64,000 bases of DNA. Source: an uncultured Winogradskyella sp. GTDB taxonomy: Bacteria; Bacteroidota; Bacteroidia; Flavobacteriales; Flavobacteriaceae. The DNA is taken from NCBI RefSeq assembly GCF_947498345.1, contig NZ_CANMJY010000002.1, positions 186,001 through 250,000 of the forward strand, in the 5' to 3' direction. Of this stretch, positions 48,212-56,883 are shown in pieces. Position 1 is the stretch's first letter; every line of letters begins with the position of its first letter. The translations under genes and the position numbers were made by a program. The notes below the pieces were generated by a model. That model saw only the letters and a program-made list of their open reading frames with translations, was not told the origin of the DNA and made no database searches.

Positions 48212-50518
48212 CTACTCTTGTTCTGAAGAATCATTGTCTTCAATAATTTCATCCACAACAGTAATGGTAGCAGGTTCAATAGAACTATCAAAAGAATTAT
48301 GATATTCTTGTAATAAATTCATTGTAGCGTTAAGTAAGTCTTTAGTCTCAAGTAATAACCCGAAATAAAGCGTTGTGTTTTTTGGACTAGATTCTTCTGT
48401 TCTAGTTCTGGAAACTTGCTTTACGATTTTATCTGTAACTAAATCCAGAACCTCTTTTTTACGATTTATTATTGAACCGATCTGTTCAAATGATCTAGAA
48501 TCAAAAGCAACTTTAGTATCGTTCAGAAGAATTTCTATAGCATCATCAACTTCTTTAAGCTCTTTAATCTGGCTAAATTTAAGTTTCTTGTGATTATTAT
48601 TCACATGCTTATGACTTACCTTAGAAATATATTCTAGAGACTGTGTCATGTCTTCTAAATATCCCAAGATATTAATATAGAAGCTACTTGCTCTTAGACT
48701 GGTTTCGTCTAAGTTTTTAATAAAGTAGAAAATATTATCACGTAAGCTATCAACTTCTGTTGATAATTTATCTATTTGTTTCTTATTCTTTTTAAGTAAG
48801 GTTAAATCTTGTTTTGCTAACCCACTAACAGCGTTGGTGTATATTTTATTTCCACGTTTTACAACATTAGAGATATTGCCAGCGCTCTCTTGGATAACTC
48901 CTTGAACCGATCTACTACCAGTAGCTTTTAAGCTATCCTCATCTACAGTTTTCGTTGATTTATCTTTATGAGATTTGTAGTTTCTGTATAATAAAATAGC
49001 TGTCAATAATAATAGAATTGGTGTTATTACTGTAGGGTTCCAATTGATTAAGAACACTACTGTACCGGCAGCTATAAAAGCTCCAAGAGCAGTACCAAAC
49101 CATCCACCAATAACATTTAATACGCCTGCAACACGATATACAGCACTTTCTCTTCCCCAAGCTCTATCAGCTAAAGATGTACCCATAGCTACCATAAAAG
49201 TTACGTAAGTGGTTGATAATGGTAATTTCATTGAAGTTGCAATTGCAATTAATACACCAGCTACCATTAAATTTACAGATGCTCTAATCATATCAAAAGC
49301 GGGCGCATCAATACTCTGGTCTTTAGTTAATATAAACTCTGGCTTATTAAAACTGTTATTAATTTTACCTTTTATAGATTTTGGTAAAATAGCACCAAAG
49401 TAATTAGATAATCTCGTTGTGCCTTTTACAATTGATCTAGACAATTGATTAGGCTCAAATTTTTCGTGAGTATCACCTTGACGAGACAAGCTGATTTCAG
49501 TTTCAGCTACAGTTTTAGCTTTTTTAGAAAACCAAAGTGTTAATACCATAATTGCACCAGCTATAAAAAGTAGTAGAGGTTCTGCTGGTACTTTTTTATC
49601 TAAAACATCCATTGACATGGTTATATCCATACCATTAGCAATCCAAGCTTCATAAGAATGATAAGCAGCCATAGGCACACCAATAAAGTTTACTAAGTCG
49701 TTACCAGAAAAGGCTAGAGCCAATCCAAAAGTACCAACAGCAATGACTACGAGTAGTACAGTTTTTTTGGTGATTTTTTCGAATATGAAAGAAAATAAAG
49801 TCCATATCACGAAACTTCCTAAGATGATATAGATTTCATTACCTTCAATTAAACCTTTTAAATCTTTATAGTAAGGAGTTCCTTTAAGTCCTTTTAAAAA
49901 GATAAAGTAAGTAATAGCAGTTAAGGCTATACCTCCGAATATCATTCCAAAATTCTTTACTTTTTTCTCATAGTTAAATGTAAAAATAAGTCGCGATATC
50001 CATTGCACTAATGCACCAACCGAAAATGCGATAACAACAGATAGCAAAATACCAGAGATAATCTCAATAGCTTTTTCTGTGTTTATATAAGTTGCTAAAT
50101 CCGAGAGGGTTTGAGAGTCAGAATGACTAATCTTTATCAACGACATTACAACGGCTGCACCTAATAAGTTAAATACAATAGAAACTGTAGTAGATGTTGG
50201 TAGGCCTAATGTATTAAAGAAGTCTAATAATAGAATATCGGTAATCATTACAGCCATGAAAATGAGCATAATTTCTCCAAATTCAAATTGGGCAGGAACA
50301 AAAATTCCTTTTCTTGCTACTTCCATCATTCCGCTAGAAAATACGGCTCCAATAAAAATTCCTAAACTCGCAACAATCATTATGGTTCTTAAAGAAATGG
50401 CTTTAGAACCTATTGCAGAATTTAAGAAATTAATAGCATCATTACTCACACCTACGATAATATCAGCAACAGCTAATACAGTGATGGCAATTAACATGAA
50501 TAAATACATATTGTCCAT
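48212..50518 (-). CDS. Pit-type phosphate transporter fused to a PhoU-like domain
   Basis: The 768-residue product has a Pit core with two inverted repeats: VSNDAINFLNSAIGSKA near the N-terminus and STTYVTFMVAMGTSLADRAWG later. It takes up phosphate with a cation. The last 230 residues (from about 540) are a soluble, helical PhoU/DUF47-like domain, usually a separate Pit regulator. The fusion is common in Bacteroidota, and suggests built-in control. It is downstream of the porin gene, with its own Pho-box-like repeat in front. Confidence 0.93.
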   Translation of the reverse strand: MDNMYLFMLIAITVLAVADIIVGVSNDAINFLNSAIGSKAISLRTIMIVASLGIFIGAVFSSGMMEVARKGIFVPAQFEFGEIMLIFMAVMITDILLLDFFNTLGLPTSTTVSIVFNLLGAAVVMSLIKISHSDSQTLSDLATYINTEKAIEIISGILLSVVIAFSVGALVQWISRLIFTFNYEKKVKNFGMIFGGIALTAITYFIFLKGLKGTPYYKDLKGLIEGNEIYIILGSFVIWTLFSFIFEKITKKTVLLVVIAVGTFGLALAFSGNDLVNFIGVPMAAYHSYEAWIANGMDITMSMDVLDKKVPAEPLLLFIAGAIMVLTLWFSKKAKTVAETEISLSRQGDTHEKFEPNQLSRSIVKGTTRLSNYFGAILPKSIKGKINNSFNKPEFILTKDQSIDAPAFDMIRASVNLMVAGVLIAIATSMKLPLSTTYVTFMVAMGTSLADRAWGRESAVYRVAGVLNVIGGWFGTALGAFIAAGTVVFLINWNPTVITPILLLLTAILLYRNYKSHKDKSTKTVDEDSLKATGSRSVQGVIQESAGNISNVVKRGNKIYTNAVSGLAKQDLTLLKKNKKQIDKLSTEVDSLRDNIFYFIKNLDETSLRASSFYINILGYLEDMTQSLEYISKVSHKHVNNNHKKLKFSQIKELKEVDDAIEILLNDTKVAFDSRSFEQIGSIINRKKEVLDLVTDKIVKQVSRTRTEESSPKNTTLYFGLLLETKDLLNATMNLLQEYHNSFDSSIEPATITVVDEIIEDNDSSEQE

Positions 50519-50532
50519 AATTTTTGATTTTG

Positions 50533-50577
50533 CAAATATCTAGACTGTTTAAGTTAGATATGTTATGTTAATGTTAT
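50533..50577 (-). promoter_or_regulatory. Pho-box-like repeat and -7 box of the Pit gene
   Basis: On the minus strand two ATAACA units lie exactly 11 bp apart (bases 50561-50566 and 50572-50577 on the plus strand), 20 bp upstream of GATATTTG (50533-50540), which is one base off TAnnTTTG. The layout equals a PhoB/PhoP-type site: direct repeats at 11-bp phase next to a weak -33 region. Confidence 0.6.
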
Positions 50578-50587
50578 TTTTTATTGT

Positions 50588-51793
50588 TTAAAAGTGAATG
50601 TCAAAACCTAATCTAAAGGTAATGTTATCTTCGTTGCCATCAACTGTTGTATAGCTAATATCAGACTGAACTTTTAACTTGTGTCCTACTATAAATTTGT
50701 TAACACCTAAAGTGTATTGTCTTTCAGGATCGCGATTTGTAATTGACTCAAAGTTAGTACCTGTGTAACGCGCTGCTATTTCGTAATTACTTTTAAATAA
50801 GTAACCTGCTTGTAGGTTTAAGGCATTACCTGTTAAAACCACATCTCCTGTTGGAGTTGTACCGTCAGCTTCTGTTGCAACTTCATCGTCAGCGGTACGC
50901 TTAGCATATTCGCCCATAAATGAAAACCCTTTATACTTAAACATTGCATCAGCAAAAATTGTGGTTTGGTCGGTCTCATATAAAGTCCCATCTGCTCTAA
51001 TCATATAATCACCTGCAAACCCTCTTTCTCTCACTGCATCTTGATTGTAGTTGTATGTAAAACCAACCATTAATTTTGGTTTTTGTTCACGTTTTAAATC
51101 AGATTGACTATAATCTCCTTTAGACTTAAATTTTCCAAAAGGCAAAAACTCTAAACGTGCAGTATATTGTAACCCTCCTTCATTACCTTCAGTAACATTT
51201 CGACCTTCACCTTGAGAAATTGAAAGTTTTTCTTTTATTAAAAAATCTTTACCAAGTTTAGTCTTATGTCTTAATTGAATACCTAAGTCACGGTCAATAT
51301 TAAAACGACTGTTTAATAAAGAACGATCTATCAATTGCATATTCGCAGAAGATACAACACGTTCTACATTACCGGGCAATTTTGTTTGACCTGCCCATAA
51401 CTCCCAGTTTTCTGCAAAACTCCACATTATAACAGCATCTAAAATATAACGAGGTGTATTTCTGTTAAATTCATTGGCTCCAGAAATATCTCGGTTTGAT
51501 AAACCTAATTCCATTTTATATCTAAGCTTTGGGCTGTAAGCAAAACCATCAAATTTTAATCGCGCTCTACGAACTATGAAGTTATGTTCTGGACTTACGT
51601 ATTGATCACCATCGTGATCCCATGAAGAGTTTGATCGTACTTGAAAGCGAGGAGCAAATTTTATACTAAAAGAACTGTCTTTAGCTACAAAATTAATAAG
51701 GCCTTTCCCAAATGAAGTATCACTAATTTCTTGGGCTCTTAAAGAAAAAATCGATAAAATAGCTATAGTAGCTATAATAGGTTTTAGTTTCAT
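50588..51793 (-). CDS. Phosphate-selective porin (OprP/OprO-like)
   Basis: A 401-residue outer-membrane barrel with a signal peptide (to about residue 21, ending LRAQ) and regular short aromatic strands; RFQVRSNSSWD and VRRARLKFDG are typical of OprP family N-termini. In other bacteria it admits phosphate or polyphosphate under starvation. It lies 69 bp upstream of pit on the same strand, so phosphate can pass from porin to inner-membrane transporter. Confidence 0.88.
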   Translation of the reverse strand: MKLKPIIATIAILSIFSLRAQEISDTSFGKGLINFVAKDSSFSIKFAPRFQVRSNSSWDHDGDQYVSPEHNFIVRRARLKFDGFAYSPKLRYKMELGLSNRDISGANEFNRNTPRYILDAVIMWSFAENWELWAGQTKLPGNVERVVSSANMQLIDRSLLNSRFNIDRDLGIQLRHKTKLGKDFLIKEKLSISQGEGRNVTEGNEGGLQYTARLEFLPFGKFKSKGDYSQSDLKREQKPKLMVGFTYNYNQDAVRERGFAGDYMIRADGTLYETDQTTIFADAMFKYKGFSFMGEYAKRTADDEVATEADGTTPTGDVVLTGNALNLQAGYLFKSNYEIAARYTGTNFESITNRDPERQYTLGVNKFIVGHKLKVQSDISYTTVDGNEDNITFRLGFDIHF

Positions 51794-51818
51794 TATATGA
51801 TTTAGTTTTTGTCGAGTG

Positions 51819-51863
51819 CAAAGAACTTACATATTTCAATTACGAATGTTTCCTTAATGTTAA
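51819..51863 (-). promoter_or_regulatory. Pho-box-like repeat and -7 box of the porin gene
   Basis: The minus strand reads TTAACA then, 11 bp later, GAAACA (51858-51863 and 51847-51852 on the plus strand). It is 20 bp upstream of GTTCTTTG (51819-51826), one base off TAnnTTTG. The spacing is the same as at the Pit gene. Confidence 0.6.
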
Positions 51864-51873
51864 GTTTTAGCAT

Positions 51874-51901
51874 AAAAAAAACTGCCTTGGCCAAAGGCAG
51901 T
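51874..51901 (-). terminator. Intrinsic terminator before the porin gene
   Basis: ACTGCCTT (51881-51888) and AAGGCAGT (51894-51901) pair across a GGCCA loop, followed on the minus strand by a run of eight Ts. No protein gene precedes it on this strand. Confidence 0.75.
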
Positions 51902-51983
51902 CATTAGAATTCATGATAATTAGTCGACAAAAACTAATAGATTATACGAAACTAATATGTCTTATAAGACAAAGACAAATATA
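51881..51983 (-). ncRNA. Candidate small RNA or attenuated leader upstream of the porin gene
   Basis: On the minus strand, TATATTTG (51976-51983) is a full -7 match. It is followed by a 12-bp palindrome GTCTTATAAGAC (51959-51970), a 6-bp hairpin (51919-51924 with 51933-51938), and a terminator (51881-51901 with a T-run). The predicted RNA is about 100 nt and ends 80 bp before the porin gene, so it could be a free small RNA or a transcription-attenuating leader. No reading frame of note. Confidence 0.45.
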
Positions 51984-52090
51984 ATATCGATGTATAACGA
52001 GATTGTAACCATAGTATTAATTAATTATTAAACTTATTGTATGTTTATTAATATTATAAATACTTGATAAACAATAATTTAAGATTCTAA

Positions 52091-52145
52091 TGTAAAATTA
52101 ATGTTAAGTAATTGTTGCTTAAATATTAAGAAATCTTTATATTTG
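52091..52145 (+). promoter_or_regulatory. Promoter of the YwqK-like gene with a 11-bp-phased repeat
   Basis: TGTAAA (52091-52096) and TGTTAA (52102-52107) sit 11 bp apart and read TTAACA/TTTACA on the minus strand. Downstream come TTG (52115-52117), 20 bp, and TATATTTG (52138-52145), a very good promoter for the gene at 52170. The repeat orientation is opposite to that at the pit and porin promoters, so it may serve either direction. Confidence 0.5.
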
Positions 52146-52169
52146 ATTATAATTTTAAAAACCCATATT

Positions 52170-52535
52170 ATGAACAAGAATGTTTTAATGTTGTTCGCTT
52201 TATTTATCGGTATGGTTTCTTTTGCTCAGCAAGAGCGACAGTTAAAATTTAATGAAGACACCAATTTAATTGAAGTAACCTATTATCATGACAATGGAGT
52301 TGTAAGTCAAACAGGATTTTACAATCTAGATGGTAAGTTACAAGGTGAGTGGTTAAGTTTTAATGCCGAAGGTAATAAAAGTGTTTCAGCAATTTATGAT
52401 AATGGGAAAAAGGTCGGCAAGTGGTTTTACTGGTCAGGTAAAACTTTGAAAGAAGTAGATTATACAAATAACGCTATAGTTAGCGTGGTTGAGTGGAAAA
52501 GGGATGATAAAACATCTGTTGCTACTCGAGATTAA
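52170..52535 (+). CDS. Exported YwqK/MORN-like repeat protein
   Basis: Started at ATG 52170, which gives a signal peptide (ending SFAQ); the frame extends 23 codons upstream. The 121-residue product has repeats such as YHDNGVVSQTGFYNLDGKLQGEW and YDNGKKVGKWFYW, the MORN-type/YwqK antitoxin-like motif, common in secreted Bacteroidota proteins. The role is unknown. A strong terminator follows. Confidence 0.85.
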   Translation: MNKNVLMLFALFIGMVSFAQQERQLKFNEDTNLIEVTYYHDNGVVSQTGFYNLDGKLQGEWLSFNAEGNKSVSAIYDNGKKVGKWFYWSGKTLKEVDYTNNAIVSVVEWKRDDKTSVATRD

Positions 52536-52552
52536 TAAAAAAGATGATTAAT

Positions 52553-52587
52553 AAAAAAAGCATCCTAATTTTTAGGATGCTTTTTTT
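52553..52587. terminator. Strong bidirectional intrinsic terminator
   Basis: A 16-bp stem (52553-52568, 52572-52587) with a TTT loop, A- and T-runs at the ends. It separates the YwqK-like gene from the convergent lipoprotein gene. Confidence 0.92.
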
Positions 52588-52624
52588 ATTAAACTTGTGT
52601 TCTAACTAAAACTCAAATAAGGTA

Positions 52625-53797
52625 CTAATTTGCTGTCCAGTTTGCCCCCCAAGTTGCAAAATCAGTTCCAGTTGCATTTGCTGCATTACCAAAAATGACA
52701 TCAGCTTCTGTAAGTACATTTTCTAAATCGCTAAGTACTACCGGAGAATCTACATCAGTAAATGATATATCAGTAACAGAAGTATCGCCATCTAATACTC
52801 CTTGGCTAGTCGCCTGACCTGGCTCATCATCTTGTATTACAAAGCCACGTCCAAAATTGCTAACCAAAACATTAGAGAAAACACCTCTAGAACCTGCACG
52901 TAATCTAAATGCGCGACCAGAGTCATTATCTCCAATAACGGTAACATTAGTGACGTTTGGTGCAGAGAAATACCCACCTTCATTAGAGAAGTCTGTGTTA
53001 AATCCATCCATTTCGAAACCACTATCATGACCTATACCTTCATTCTGTATAATATATACATCTGTTAGAGAACCTGTGTAGCCTTCAGTCCAGTCAATAG
53101 AATCATCTTCTGCATCTGTAACGACTAAGTGACTTGCATTTACAGTACCACCAAAGAATTCGAAACCATCATCAGAACCTTTAAAAATTTGTACATAATC
53201 GATTGTAGTACCATTACCTACAGCATAAAGTGATAATCCATTAAGCTCAGCATTACCATCAATAGCACCACCAACATATTCTAAACGTACATACTCTAAA
53301 CGACCTGAGTCATCATTTGGAATGTTACCTCCGTAAGATAAACCACCAACTTCTGTTGTAGCTGTATCGTCTGATCCATCTGCAGTAGAATTGATAGGCG
53401 CTTTTCCGCAAATTACAATTCCTCCCCAATCTCCAGAGCTTGGAGTACCAGCATTAGATGTAAATACTATTGGGTTAGAAGCTGTACCAGCTGCATTAAT
53501 TTGAGCACCAGGTAAAATAGCGATATAAGCGTTAACACCAACTGGAGCAACTTTTATTTCTGCTCCTGCAGGTACAGTAAGCGTCGTATTTTCTGCCATT
53601 AATAATGGACCAGTGATTAAATATTCTTCACTGTTACTTAGAGTTAAATCTTCGGTAAATACACCACTAAGTTCAATTACATCATCAGAAGTACTTGGAT
53701 TATTAGTAATGTTAATCTCGATATCTGAAGTATCATCTCTTTCACATCCCATAAATGTCAATGTAAAAGAAAGTAGAATTAATAAATTACGTTTCAT
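52625..53797 (-). CDS. Beta-helix lipoprotein, partner of the TonB receptor
   Basis: The 390-residue product has a lipoprotein signal (FMGC, Cys about 18) and then a long Gly/Asn/Asp-rich right-handed beta-helix-like region, with NPIVFTSNAGTP and GRLEYVRLEYVGG-type repeats. It starts 36 bp after the TonB receptor stop codon, and the pair may form a surface lipoprotein-receptor uptake unit as in SusD/SusC systems, but it is not a SusD homologue. It may bind an organophosphate or other phosphorus source; that is inference from the neighbours. Confidence 0.75.
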   Translation of the reverse strand: MKRNLLILLSFTLTFMGCERDDTSDIEINITNNPSTSDDVIELSGVFTEDLTLSNSEEYLITGPLLMAENTTLTVPAGAEIKVAPVGVNAYIAILPGAQINAAGTASNPIVFTSNAGTPSSGDWGGIVICGKAPINSTADGSDDTATTEVGGLSYGGNIPNDDSGRLEYVRLEYVGGAIDGNAELNGLSLYAVGNGTTIDYVQIFKGSDDGFEFFGGTVNASHLVVTDAEDDSIDWTEGYTGSLTDVYIIQNEGIGHDSGFEMDGFNTDFSNEGGYFSAPNVTNVTVIGDNDSGRAFRLRAGSRGVFSNVLVSNFGRGFVIQDDEPGQATSQGVLDGDTSVTDISFTDVDSPVVLSDLENVLTEADVIFGNAANATGTDFATWGANWTAN

Positions 53798-53833
53798 TGT
53801 TTTTAGAATTTAAATATTGAGTTATTATTTTTA

Positions 53834-56656
53834 TTAAAATTTATATTTTAGAGAAAGTCCCATGTTTACACCAGCTTTGAATTCTGAAATAGTAATATCT
53901 CCACTACCAGTATCTTCTCTTACAAATGAAATATCAGGATTCAATAAGTTAGATGCAGAAACCGTTAGGTCTAGTTTTTCTGAGATTGGGCTATTCCATA
54001 CAAAGTTTAAAGCAGTAACACTTTTTTCTACGATATTCCCTAACTGTCCAGAGCCTATAGAGTATATTCTGTCTGAGAAATAAGAGCTAACAAGTGTTAA
54101 CCTTGGCTCATAGTTTCCAAATTTAGGTTTATAGGATAAATCAGCGTTAAAGACCCATTTTGATGCTCCTTCAAGCTCTTCGGTACTACGATCAAAAGAT
54201 GTAGTAAATGTTCCTGAAATATCTTTTAAATCTTGTTCTGTGAATAGGTAAGATCCGTTGAATCCAAAGCTCAATAAAGCATTTTCCTCATCACGTTGGA
54301 GTAGATTTTTACGTAGTTCTACTTCTAATCCAAACGCTTCGGCATTATCACCAGTTCTAAAATAACGCTGTGTACCAGTAGCATCTGCTGCAACAACTCT
54401 GTTAACAGGATTTTCAATACGTTTTGCAAATGCAGCTACAGATAAGATCTCATCAGCAGATACAAACCACTCGTATTTTAAATCGAAATTATATATTTCA
54501 GAATATGTTGGGCCGTTACCATCAGGGCCGCCTAATAAATCAGGGTTACCACCATAACGTAATGTTACATCCTCGTATACAAATGGCGCAACTTCTTTAA
54601 ATTCTGGTATAGATGCTGTTTTACTAAATGAGAATCTTAAGTTAGAATCTTCGTTTAAGGCATATTTAACGTTAAAGCTAGGTAGTATCAAAGTTTCGGA
54701 AACCGATCTTACTCCAGGGTCATTAGGTGGAATATTAATTACGTCGTATTCAATCTCTTGCTCAAAATGTTCAAAACGCACACCAGGTACTAATAACCAC
54801 TTTTCACCTAAATTGATTTCGGCATTGGCATAACCAGCATTAATGGTTAATAAACCGTTATAGGTGTTTTCTGGTAAACCAGGTACGTTGGTATTACCTA
54901 TTTCATTACTTATAGGATTAAGTACAATAGTATTAAATAGACCTTGACCTGGTTCAAGACTTAGGTTATTGACATTTAATAATGAGTTGAGATTATTTAC
55001 GTTCAATACAGGTGTATTGTCTCTATCAATAATTTCGTAACCATATCTAATACTATTGAATATACGTTTTTTTCTACGACCGTTATAACCAATATTGAAT
55101 TTGAAGTTTTCTGAAACTTCCTTATTAAAATTCAAGAAACTACTGTATTCGTTATCTTCAATAGTTTGAAAAAAGCGTTGATTATCAAAAGGAATATTAG
55201 TATAAAATATAGGATTAGTATTAGGATCATTATCTAAGGCAAACTGATAATTTTCAAACGAAAAACGTTTTCTGTCTGGTTCATCAGATAAAACCTTGTT
55301 GTAACCAAAACCCCAAGTAATTTTTATACCATCTTCATCAGATGATCGGTGTGTCCCCAATAATTGGTTTACAAAAACCATGTCCTGGTTAAATCTTCCA
55401 TTAATGGTAAAGTATCCAAATCCATTAGGATCTACACTTGCAATATCATCACGATTAAACCCACGACCTTTAGTACCAAAATACCCTACTTCATCATTAG
55501 AACTATTAATAAATAAGGAGCTGTATTTTAATGAATTTTGATCATCAATTTTAAAATCTAAATTCAACATACCAGTTGTATTTGTACTGTAGCTGTACTC
55601 TTCTACATTTGGGTAATCGACCTTTAATACATTGGTGAAATCTCTAGCGATACCTTCTCTGTACTCAAAACCATTAGAAAACCCTAAGGTTGCAAAGAAG
55701 CTTAGTCGTGTATCATCGTCAAAGTCAAAAGAGTACCCTCCGGATATAGAACCATTAAGGTTAACTGGTGATTCGCCTTGTTGAGGGTCAACAGTATGAG
55801 ATAATACTACGGCAAAAGGATTATTGTTATAACGGTTGTAGTATCCAAAGAAACTTGCTCCGTCATTTCTAACAAATGTTTCGCCAGCAGCATTAGAATT
55901 AACTCCACTACCTATAGCTATATTTAAAAATCCGTTACCGTTATATTCTTTAGAATTAATGTTAACATTACCAGCAGCAAAATCTCCATAAAAATTAGGT
56001 GTATAAGCTTTACTTACCGATATGTTTTCAATAATATCTGTTGAGAACAAGTCTAAGTCGATATTCTTTTTATTTACATCAGTAGAAGGTAATGACAGTC
56101 CATTCATAGTTGTATTTTGGTATCTGTCACCTAAACCTCTTACATAAACATCACTAGAGCTTTCTTGTTTAGAAATACCAGAGATTTTTGATACGGCCGC
56201 AGCAGCGTCACCAACCCCTTTTCTAGATAATTCTATAGCACCAATACTTTGCTTTATTTCCACAGCTTTTTTCTGGTCTAATAATAATGCTGCTTCACTT
56301 TCTTTTCTGGTTGTGGTTGTAATAACAACCTCGTCTAAGCTTGCTGCACTCGCAGCCATAGGAACATTGATTGTAGTCACTTTACCAGGAACAACTTCTG
56401 CTTTAATCTCTATTGTTTCGTAACCCACGAAGCTAAACACTAAAGTATAAGAGCCAGGGTCTAATTCAGTAAATTGATATAAACCATCAATATCCGAAGT
56501 TGTACCAGTTGTGGTACCTTTAATTAGAATATTGGCGAACGGTAAAGGTTCGTTATTATATTCTTTATCTGTAAGCTTGCCAACAATAGAACCTGTATTT
56601 TGAGCAAAGGTTATTGCTGAAGTTAATAATATGAGTATGATTTGTAAATTTCTCAT
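53834..56656 (-). CDS. TonB-dependent outer-membrane receptor with carboxypeptidase-like N-terminal domain
   Basis: Started at ATG 56656 because it gives a signal peptide (ending ITFAQ); a TTG-initiated frame continues upstream to 56716. The 940-residue protein has a CarboxypepD_reg-like domain (about 20-100; GSIVGKLTDKEYNNEPLPFANILIKG), a plug (about 120-240; SDVYVRGLGDRYQ), and a large barrel ending LSLKYKF. It imports a ligand across the outer membrane using TonB energy. Its promoter carries triple 11-bp-phased repeats like those of pit and porin, suggesting a phosphorus-related substrate. Confidence 0.93.
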   Translation of the reverse strand: MRNLQIILILLTSAITFAQNTGSIVGKLTDKEYNNEPLPFANILIKGTTTGTTSDIDGLYQFTELDPGSYTLVFSFVGYETIEIKAEVVPGKVTTINVPMAASAASLDEVVITTTTRKESEAALLLDQKKAVEIKQSIGAIELSRKGVGDAAAAVSKISGISKQESSSDVYVRGLGDRYQNTTMNGLSLPSTDVNKKNIDLDLFSTDIIENISVSKAYTPNFYGDFAAGNVNINSKEYNGNGFLNIAIGSGVNSNAAGETFVRNDGASFFGYYNRYNNNPFAVVLSHTVDPQQGESPVNLNGSISGGYSFDFDDDTRLSFFATLGFSNGFEYREGIARDFTNVLKVDYPNVEEYSYSTNTTGMLNLDFKIDDQNSLKYSSLFINSSNDEVGYFGTKGRGFNRDDIASVDPNGFGYFTINGRFNQDMVFVNQLLGTHRSSDEDGIKITWGFGYNKVLSDEPDRKRFSFENYQFALDNDPNTNPIFYTNIPFDNQRFFQTIEDNEYSSFLNFNKEVSENFKFNIGYNGRRKKRIFNSIRYGYEIIDRDNTPVLNVNNLNSLLNVNNLSLEPGQGLFNTIVLNPISNEIGNTNVPGLPENTYNGLLTINAGYANAEINLGEKWLLVPGVRFEHFEQEIEYDVINIPPNDPGVRSVSETLILPSFNVKYALNEDSNLRFSFSKTASIPEFKEVAPFVYEDVTLRYGGNPDLLGGPDGNGPTYSEIYNFDLKYEWFVSADEILSVAAFAKRIENPVNRVVAADATGTQRYFRTGDNAEAFGLEVELRKNLLQRDEENALLSFGFNGSYLFTEQDLKDISGTFTTSFDRSTEELEGASKWVFNADLSYKPKFGNYEPRLTLVSSYFSDRIYSIGSGQLGNIVEKSVTALNFVWNSPISEKLDLTVSASNLLNPDISFVREDTGSGDITISEFKAGVNMGLSLKYKF

Positions 56657-56713
56657 CAGTCTTTTAAAATTGCTGCTGCAAAGAAACTGTGATATTTCAT
56701 CATTAAGGTTATA

Positions 56714-56767
56714 CAAAAATTAAAGATTTGTAACGAAAAGGTTAGTTTACTGTTAGCTTAGTATTAA
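56714..56767 (-). promoter_or_regulatory. Triple Pho-box-like repeat and -7 box of the TonB receptor gene
   Basis: Read on the plus strand, GGTTAG (56740-56745), TGTTAG (56751-56756) and TATTAA (56762-56767) repeat at exact 11-bp phase. On the minus strand they are TTAATA, CTAACA and CTAACC. The -7 box AATTTTTG (56714-56721) lies 18 bp away, close to the pit and porin layouts. Confidence 0.55.
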
Positions 56768-56883
56768 CTGAATTGACAATAAGGAAACAATTTAGTAACA
56801 TTGATAATTTAAGAATGTATCTAATCTTTTTACCGCCAACTCTATAGCAAATTATCTATCTTGCATACTCTAAAATTTAAACT

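Follow-up and report, generated by a model that had tools for sequence, protein, structure and literature searches.

Direct repeats with an 11-bp period are common among the DNA sites of OmpR-family response regulators, and the consensus of the PhoP box of Bacillus subtilis is TT(A/C/T)ACA-N5. The hexamer and spacing of that box are nearly identical to those of repeats in a stretch of DNA from an uncultured Winogradskyella sp. (Flavobacteriaceae; assembly GCF_947498345.1, contig NZ_CANMJY010000002.1, positions 186,001 to 250,000; G000:C2:186001-250000), whereas the phylum, the sigma factor and the target genes differ. This stretch of 64,000 nucleotides, hereafter the window, belongs to a genome of 3.81 Mb in 31 contigs, and its repeats lie upstream of the genes for a TonB-dependent receptor, an OprP/OprO-like porin and a Pit-type phosphate transporter and of a candidate small RNA.

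The closest described element is the Pho box of cyanobacterial SphR/PhoB, reported as three tandem copies of CTTAACCT with 3-bp linkers (PMC1906773, PMC11126600). The repeats described here share with it the TTAA(C) core, the 11-bp period, an arrangement of at least three units in tandem and, in another genus, a place upstream of pst genes, but in Winogradskyella up to six or seven half-sites stand in register before the TonB receptor gene, the promoter core is the Bacteroidota -7 element TAnnTTTG, and the targets include a TonB receptor, a lipoprotein, Pit and candidate small RNAs. The Pho box of Escherichia coli PhoB is likewise reported to consist of 11-bp direct repeats (PMC4415409, PMC1906773) and to be located 10 bp before the -10 element (PMC1906773), compared with 10 or 21 bp to the -7 core here; its half-site is CTGTCAT, whereas that of Winogradskyella is NTAAC-like. 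Among the Flavobacteriaceae, the PUSIV cluster of Flavobacterium johnsoniae (Fjoh_0541-0546; PMC8115612) is described as containing the same types of genes (OprP, TonB-dependent transporter (TBDT), FII lipoprotein, glycosyltransferase and PhoBR), but in Winogradskyella phoBR and the glycosyltransferase gene lie elsewhere while Pit and a small RNA lie within the cluster. By word search, neither "promoter" nor "Pho box" occurs in the main text of that paper. In Riemerella anatipestifer, also of the Flavobacteriales, the motif obtained for PhoP by DAP-seq has the similar core TTTAACA and phoPR is reported to be upregulated under phosphate starvation, but PhoP is presented there as a global virulence and redox regulator and the motif is not interpreted as a phosphate box (PMC9603813). 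Small RNAs such as Rfp18 of Flavobacterium psychrophilum are independent Flavobacteriaceae transcripts predicted to pair with mRNAs (PMC9723704); the likeness to the RNAs below is one of description only, and by word search the main text names neither PhoB nor porin. Apart from the R. anatipestifer motif, a literature search made mostly without full texts returned no Flavobacteriaceae Pho box or phosphate-controlled small RNA. To our knowledge, there are few small RNAs with known circuits in the Bacteroidota.

The repeats in the window are genuine, they are conserved, and there are more of them than had been described. A preliminary description had noted minus-strand repeats at exactly 11 bp in three promoters (TTAATA/CTAACA/CTAACC before the TonB receptor, TTAACA/GAAACA before the porin and ATAACA/ATAACA before Pit), and all three sets are seen in the sequence. 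The TonB array, however, comprises six half-sites and not three, and a fourth array (52004-52031) had been missed. The repeats and -7 boxes of the three gene promoters, read from the sequence and from alignments of orthologues, are as follows.

56783 to 56799, minus strand: extra upstream pair GTTACT/GTTTCC, 11 bp apart and shifted by about one base relative to the phase of the main TonB array (alignment)
56707 to 56767, minus strand: TonB array TTAATA, CTAACA, CTAACC, GTTACA, TTAATT, ATAACC in exact 11-bp steps, six NTAAC-like half-sites in register
56679 to 56686, minus strand: TonB -7 box TTTCTTTG, its 7-mer core 21 bp past the last half-site, near-invariant in 17 aligned promoters
51847 to 51863, minus strand: porin repeats TTAACA-N5-GAAACA, 11 bp apart
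51819 to 51826, minus strand: porin -7 box GTTCTTTG
50561 to 50577, minus strand: Pit repeats ATAACA-N5-ATAACA, 11 bp apart
50533 to 50540, minus strand: Pit -7 box GATATTTG

Two details of the -7 boxes have changed. AATTTTTG, formerly taken for the TonB box, overlaps half-site five, and the conserved box is TTTCTTTG; the porin box GTTCTTTG departs from TAnnTTTG at two bases and not, as had been stated, at one.

Conservation in orthologous promoters had been set beforehand as a check on the repeats, and it was found. Winogradskyella promoters of the TonB receptor (17), porin (16) and pit (15), those of the window included, were aligned, and pairs of the words TAAC, TAAT, TTAC and AAAC were counted by lag and compared with the mean of shuffled sequences. 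At lag 11 the TonB promoters gave 86 pairs against 3.1 in the 17 Winogradskyella and 75 against 4.3 in 20 other genera (z of 46 and 34, with orthologues as non-independent samples). The counts were 25 against 2.1 for the porin in 16 Winogradskyella and 7 against 0.4 in four other genera, and 18 against 2.4 for pit in 15 Winogradskyella and 12 against 2.2 in 13 other genera. AT-rich promoter composition is hardly credible as the source of the repeats. In its favour, the genome is rich in A and T, bare TAAC triples show no enrichment across it, and its porin and pit sites get background-level scores on a matrix, as given below; yet in the TonB sets lags 10, 12 and 13 stay at shuffle level while lag 11 stands far above it, some other lags (15, 16, 19, 26 and 27) reaching z of 4-8, and the promoter of a second candidate small RNA keeps three half-sites at 11-bp steps and a 21-bp spacing to the -7 core in all 17 Winogradskyella sequences compared.

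Counted by strict words, the longest in-register run of TonB half-sites is six or seven in 15 of the 17 Winogradskyella promoters; the remaining two have three. Of the 20 other genera, three show six, two show five, 14 show three and L099 shows none; the promoter of L117 has six in register and a further pair 8 bp out of step. Of the 16 porin promoters of Winogradskyella, 10 have three half-sites in register, five have two and that of L017 has one, and at least two are found in pit promoters of 15/15 Winogradskyella and 12/13 other genera (L106 being without). The distance from the last half-site to the NTNTTTG core of the -7 box is 21 bp at the window's promoters for TonB, small RNA 1, porin and pit. 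It is 10 bp at the glycosyltransferase promoter of the same genome and at many other-genus TonB promoters, so that the two classes differ by one helical turn.

A matrix trained on Winogradskyella relatives, with the sequences of the genome under study left out, was run over 907,003 bases of that genome, a non-random set made up of the window, further stretches totalling 800 kb, and three more that surround phoB and matches to earlier patterns. Sites above 20 were those of small RNA 2 (24.4), the TonB receptor (24.2), small RNA 1 (23.5, overlapping one of 21.1) and the glycosyltransferase gene adjacent to phoR (20.6), the stretches with the small RNA 2 and glycosyltransferase sites having been picked for earlier reasons; the next-best site (17.9) is within an open reading frame (ORF). 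A further scan covered 357,320 bases in 24 loci outside the training set, from four Flavobacterium and 20 other genera, the latter chosen one per genus, mostly best-scoring, from 99 genomes with a TonB match. It gave 40 sites of at least 20, of which 36 are at orthologues, phoB-linked genes or small RNA 1; 18 of the 20 other-genus TonB promoters reach this score, L099 and L100 being lower. One of the remaining four sites precedes pstS of a pstSCAB-phoU operon (L106:2483-6721, pstS-pstC-pstA-pstB-phoU), which lies between porin and pit and all five genes of which are above curated cut-offs; three precede genes for short secreted proteins. Scanning for further sites near phosphate genes, as the preliminary description had advised, thus yielded the phoR-adjacent glycosyltransferase in the genome under study and phoB-adjacent promoters and pstSCAB-phoU in other genera. 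By eye, the short secreted proteins behind the high-scoring arrays at L105:6109, L110:1334 and L112:1322 are similar to the CarboxypepD_reg head of the TonB receptor, and they are possible extra members of the regulon.

The best PhoB match of the genome under study is RR1 (G000:C6:236272-236928), which has a receiver and an OmpR-type DNA-binding domain; its gene neighbours those of a PhoR-like kinase and a glycosyltransferase. Compared with four PhoBs (two of Flavobacterium, at 75-76%, and two of other genera), RR1 shows 75-81% identity, and three other OmpR-type regulators of the genome are 32-35% identical to the compared PhoBs (32-34% to the two of Flavobacterium). The stretch VVVGGRTIDVHIRKLREKIG, which we take to be the recognition helix, is identical between RR1 and Flavobacterium PhoB. 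By overall identity, by VVVGGRTIDVHIRKLREKIG and by the glycosyltransferase gene next to phoR, RR1 appears orthologous to Flavobacterium PhoB; since it falls below the PhoB equivalog cut-off, it is named PhoB-type and not equivalog.

In 4 of the 20 other genera the TonB receptor gene is divergent from phoB, with the array promoter abutting phoB. In the genome under study it is instead the gene for a type IX secretion system (T9SS)-sorted protein of 809 aa (L094:8179-10608) that is divergent from phoB, and the matrix scan reported no site above 14 in its promoter. The Flavobacterium genomes used (four of five located: sp. SLB02, F. chungbukense, F. hungaricum and the metagenome-assembled genome BIN31) were fetched with a phoB query, PDB chain 9oy8_H, assumed to be from Flavobacterium; at least 80 loci were listed, F. 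johnsoniae not being among the matches listed. In all four loci the order is glycosyltransferase, OprP-type porin (PF07396 confirmed in SLB02), phoR, phoB, TBDT and FII lipoprotein, which is that of Fjoh_0541-0546. Arrays precede TBDT (scores 26-28), OprP (27.6) and, more weakly, the glycosyltransferase (15.9) in 4/4 and the FII lipoprotein in 3/4.

That another OmpR-family regulator (an RprY-like protein, for example) binds the repeats, their proximity to phosphate genes being incidental, is improbable. Direct repeats of 11 bp are general to OmpR-family sites, the genome encodes at least three further full-length OmpR-type regulators, and RR1 is below the curated PhoB cut-off; yet arrays are divergent from phoB in the four genera and four phoB-fetched Flavobacterium loci above and stand before pstSCAB-phoU of another genus and the phoR-adjacent glycosyltransferase. 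In addition, three of the four corresponding genes of F. johnsoniae are reported as phosphate-induced (PMC8115612). The genes behind the window's promoters are as follows.

53834 to 56656, minus strand: TonB-dependent receptor, 940 aa (PF13715, PF07715, PF00593)
52625 to 53797, minus strand: FII-like lipoprotein, starting 36 bp past the receptor gene and resembling Fjoh_0546-like genes; no Pfam match
50588 to 51793, minus strand: OprP/OprO-like porin, 401 aa (PF07396)
48212 to 50518, minus strand: Pit-type phosphate transporter, 768 aa, with a C-terminal tail (PF01384)

The name "Pit-PhoU" used earlier for the last of these had to be dropped, as PhoU models matched neither the whole Pit protein nor its tail. 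The beta-helix label of the lipoprotein comes from the preliminary description and from Fjoh_0546. By synteny, the receptor and lipoprotein correspond to Fjoh_0545 and Fjoh_0546, for which phosphate depletion gave values of 8.02 and 9.91 (column headed fold change, log2 in the text; PMC8115612); the same column gives 5.42 for Fjoh_0541 and 3.06 for PhoB, Fjoh_0544. The earlier proposal that the receptor and beta-helix lipoprotein are linked to phosphorus is supported by this strong induction of the syntenic pair (PMC8115612), and the array suggests why these two proteins of unassigned function belong to the phosphate response.

Conservation, the phosphate-gene context and the induced counterparts point to a PhoB-type operator that is closest to the cyanobacterial Pho box: 11-bp direct repeats stand at a fixed place upstream of a promoter core, with phosphate-uptake genes downstream (pst in L106). 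The Pho reading of the repeats, first put forward in the preliminary description, is well supported by the conserved repeats, the motif at phosphate genes and the induced F. johnsoniae counterparts, and we infer PhoB binding from sequence. The whole explanation, in which the repeats are RR1 operators for four units and a small RNA pairs with the porin mRNA, is held to be very probable. When phosphate is scarce, RR1 in its phosphorylated form would line up head-to-tail on a single face of the DNA, with the last subunit placed 10 or 21 bp before the -7 core, and would recruit sigma-A RNA polymerase. Four adjacent units (receptor with lipoprotein, small RNA 1, porin and Pit) would be switched on in this manner, and small RNA 1 would base-pair with the porin mRNA over its first 13-14 nt; the likeliest effect is reduced translation, although either sign is possible. 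This would provide a concrete, testable phosphate-response operator for a family with many marine and soil members and a pointer to phosphate-controlled small RNAs in the Bacteroidota.

Several observations weigh against this explanation. RR1 scores 219 bits against a cut-off of 296 (TIGR02154) and 211 against 270 (NF053854), and the adjacent kinase 234 bits against a curated PhoR cut-off of 334; PhoU_full has no match in the genome under study. The window's porin (16.0) and pit (15.4) sites are at the background level of the matrix, so the case for both rests on conservation and not on score. In F. johnsoniae, the OprP gene Fjoh_0542 was not induced by phosphate depletion (-1.3; false discovery rate 0.245; PMC8115612), which counts against a simple reading in view of the strong array (27.6) before the gene in Flavobacterium relatives, and Pit is absent from Table 1 of that paper (PMC8115612). 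R. anatipestifer PhoP, which is likened to RR1 by motif core and not by sequence identity, was reported at 583 bound places, and the 50 direct targets listed include no obvious phosphate transporter (PMC9603813). Bare TAAC triples were too weak as a genome-wide test, with 36 matches against 69 for the reversed pattern. Strict patterns of array plus -7 box were likewise too weak, their counts being near or below those of reversed controls: 14 against 10 (pattern B) and 10 against 8 (pattern A) in the genome under study, and, in two Flavobacterium genomes, 12 against 19 and 10 against 12 (pattern B) and 18 against 33 and 23 against 32 (pattern A).

Ten of the 14 pattern-B matches were placed (pit, porin and TonB; C3:277874 and C14:62089, both intergenic; and five within ORFs at C1:7854, C7, C14:15147, C9 and C1:195934), with C1:165285, C5:242555, C14:89190 and C15:56530 outside the placement. 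Three of the ten pattern-A matches were placed, one on C11 in the intergenic region before an aminotransferase gene and two in ORFs (C5:56656 and C2:326104). The array-type pattern at G000:C14:62089-62132 (L273:4090-4133) lies 35 bp upstream of an OMP_b-brl_3-type TonB receptor-like gene of 826 aa; its matrix score is only 14.8.

The fourth array of the window drives no ORF. It lies between the gene for a 144-aa protein and the porin gene, no gene separates it from the terminator that follows, and the features there are as follows.

52004 to 52031, minus strand: array TTAATA, TTAATA, GTTACA in 11-bp steps
51976 to 51983, minus strand: -7 box TATATTTG, an exact TAnnTTTG, with 21 bp from GTTACA to the ATATTTG core
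51874 to 51971, minus strand: candidate small RNA 1, about 98 nt, with a predicted start 5 nt past the G of the -7 box and an intrinsic terminator at its end
51924 to 51937, minus strand: segment TTAGTTTTTGTCGA of small RNA 1, complementary to the porin leader
51802 to 51815, minus strand: 5' end of the porin mRNA, TCGACAAAAACTAA, the reverse complement of TTAGTTTTTGTCGA

Small RNA 1 is predicted to be an array-driven RNA made up of a 5' stem, TTAGTTTTTGTCGA and a terminator, which pairs with the 5' end of the porin mRNA. The -7 consensus TAnnTTTG is placed at -12 to -5 (PMC9723704), which would put the porin mRNA start at about 51814 and make its first 13 nt complementary to TTAGTTTTTGTCGA. 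Small RNA 1 is found with unchanged spacing at 16/16 Winogradskyella loci, counting only genomes with a close porin orthologue (at least 71% identity), and the TTAGTTTTTGTCGA segment in 7 of 20 other-genus loci, some of them incomplete. No Rfam family matched the stretch at E<=1. The 5' stem, read per sequence, is GUC/GAC in some species and GUG/CAC in others and is missing in L004; RNAalifold, applied to sequences aligned with MAFFT, gave next to no common fold (-0.65), probably because the length of the 5' stem and loop varies.

In 20 of 21 species, at least 192 of 200 shuffled leaders form a poorer duplex with small RNA 1 than the porin leader does. L105 fails, the porin start there being uncertain; L112 and L106 retain the pairing through G-U pairs, and L114 has changed both strands together. 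In L106 the pstS leader repeats the match to small RNA 1 over 13 nt, equalled by 6 of 200 shuffles. The TonB, pit and lipoprotein leaders do not stand out: at least 23 of 200 shuffles did as well for every leader tried at six other-genus loci (L100, L105, L106, L108, L112 and L114). Cognate pairs of small RNA 1 and porin leader have a slight advantage over swapped pairs (57 of 2000 permutations as good), mainly from L114, and it is slight because both segments are nearly invariant. The complementary segments could instead belong to a single read-through transcript and fold into a long-range hairpin, or be an inverted repeat serving as a DNA site; this is unlikely, although they lie about 110 bp apart on the same strand, are nearly invariant and show so weak a cognate advantage. 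Against it, the segments are separated by a conserved terminator and by a second promoter with its own array, both sides are altered together in L114, the complement recurs in the L106 pstS leader, and L108 (at 8080) retains small RNA 1 with no porin in its 14.8-kb locus, to which the search was limited. Under the preferred reading, in which small RNA 1 acts on the porin mRNA, its retention in L108 hints at other targets.

A second candidate was found at G000:C3:277851-278004 (L272), where an array of four half-sites and TTCTTTG are followed by a predicted RNA of 76 nt without an ORF; its body consists of TTAG-rich GTTAG repeats and a terminator. With a 161-bp query, matches at E<=0.01 were obtained in 23 of the 45 relatives, several of them covering short pieces only. 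The comparison used 17 of 18 sequences, that of the genome under study included (L292 was dropped, and the weaker matches L299-L307 are outside the alignment); the fourth half-site is in register in 16 of 17, L296 being the exception. Against Rfam, small RNA 2 had no convincing match, the one obtained being far below the gathering score and on the opposite strand. Array-driven small RNAs are the new part of the scheme and are predictions. The chances are slightly in favour of the view that the PhoB operator of the Flavobacteriaceae also drives small RNAs, one pairing with the porin mRNA at its very 5' end (in at least one genus also with that of pstS) and a second kept across many Winogradskyella. 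If true, the phosphate response of the Bacteroidota would have a built-in RNA layer.

The 144-aa protein next to small RNA 1 is encoded on the plus strand (52101-52535); it has weak MORN_2 similarity below the cut-off and is present in 14 of the 20 other-genus loci.

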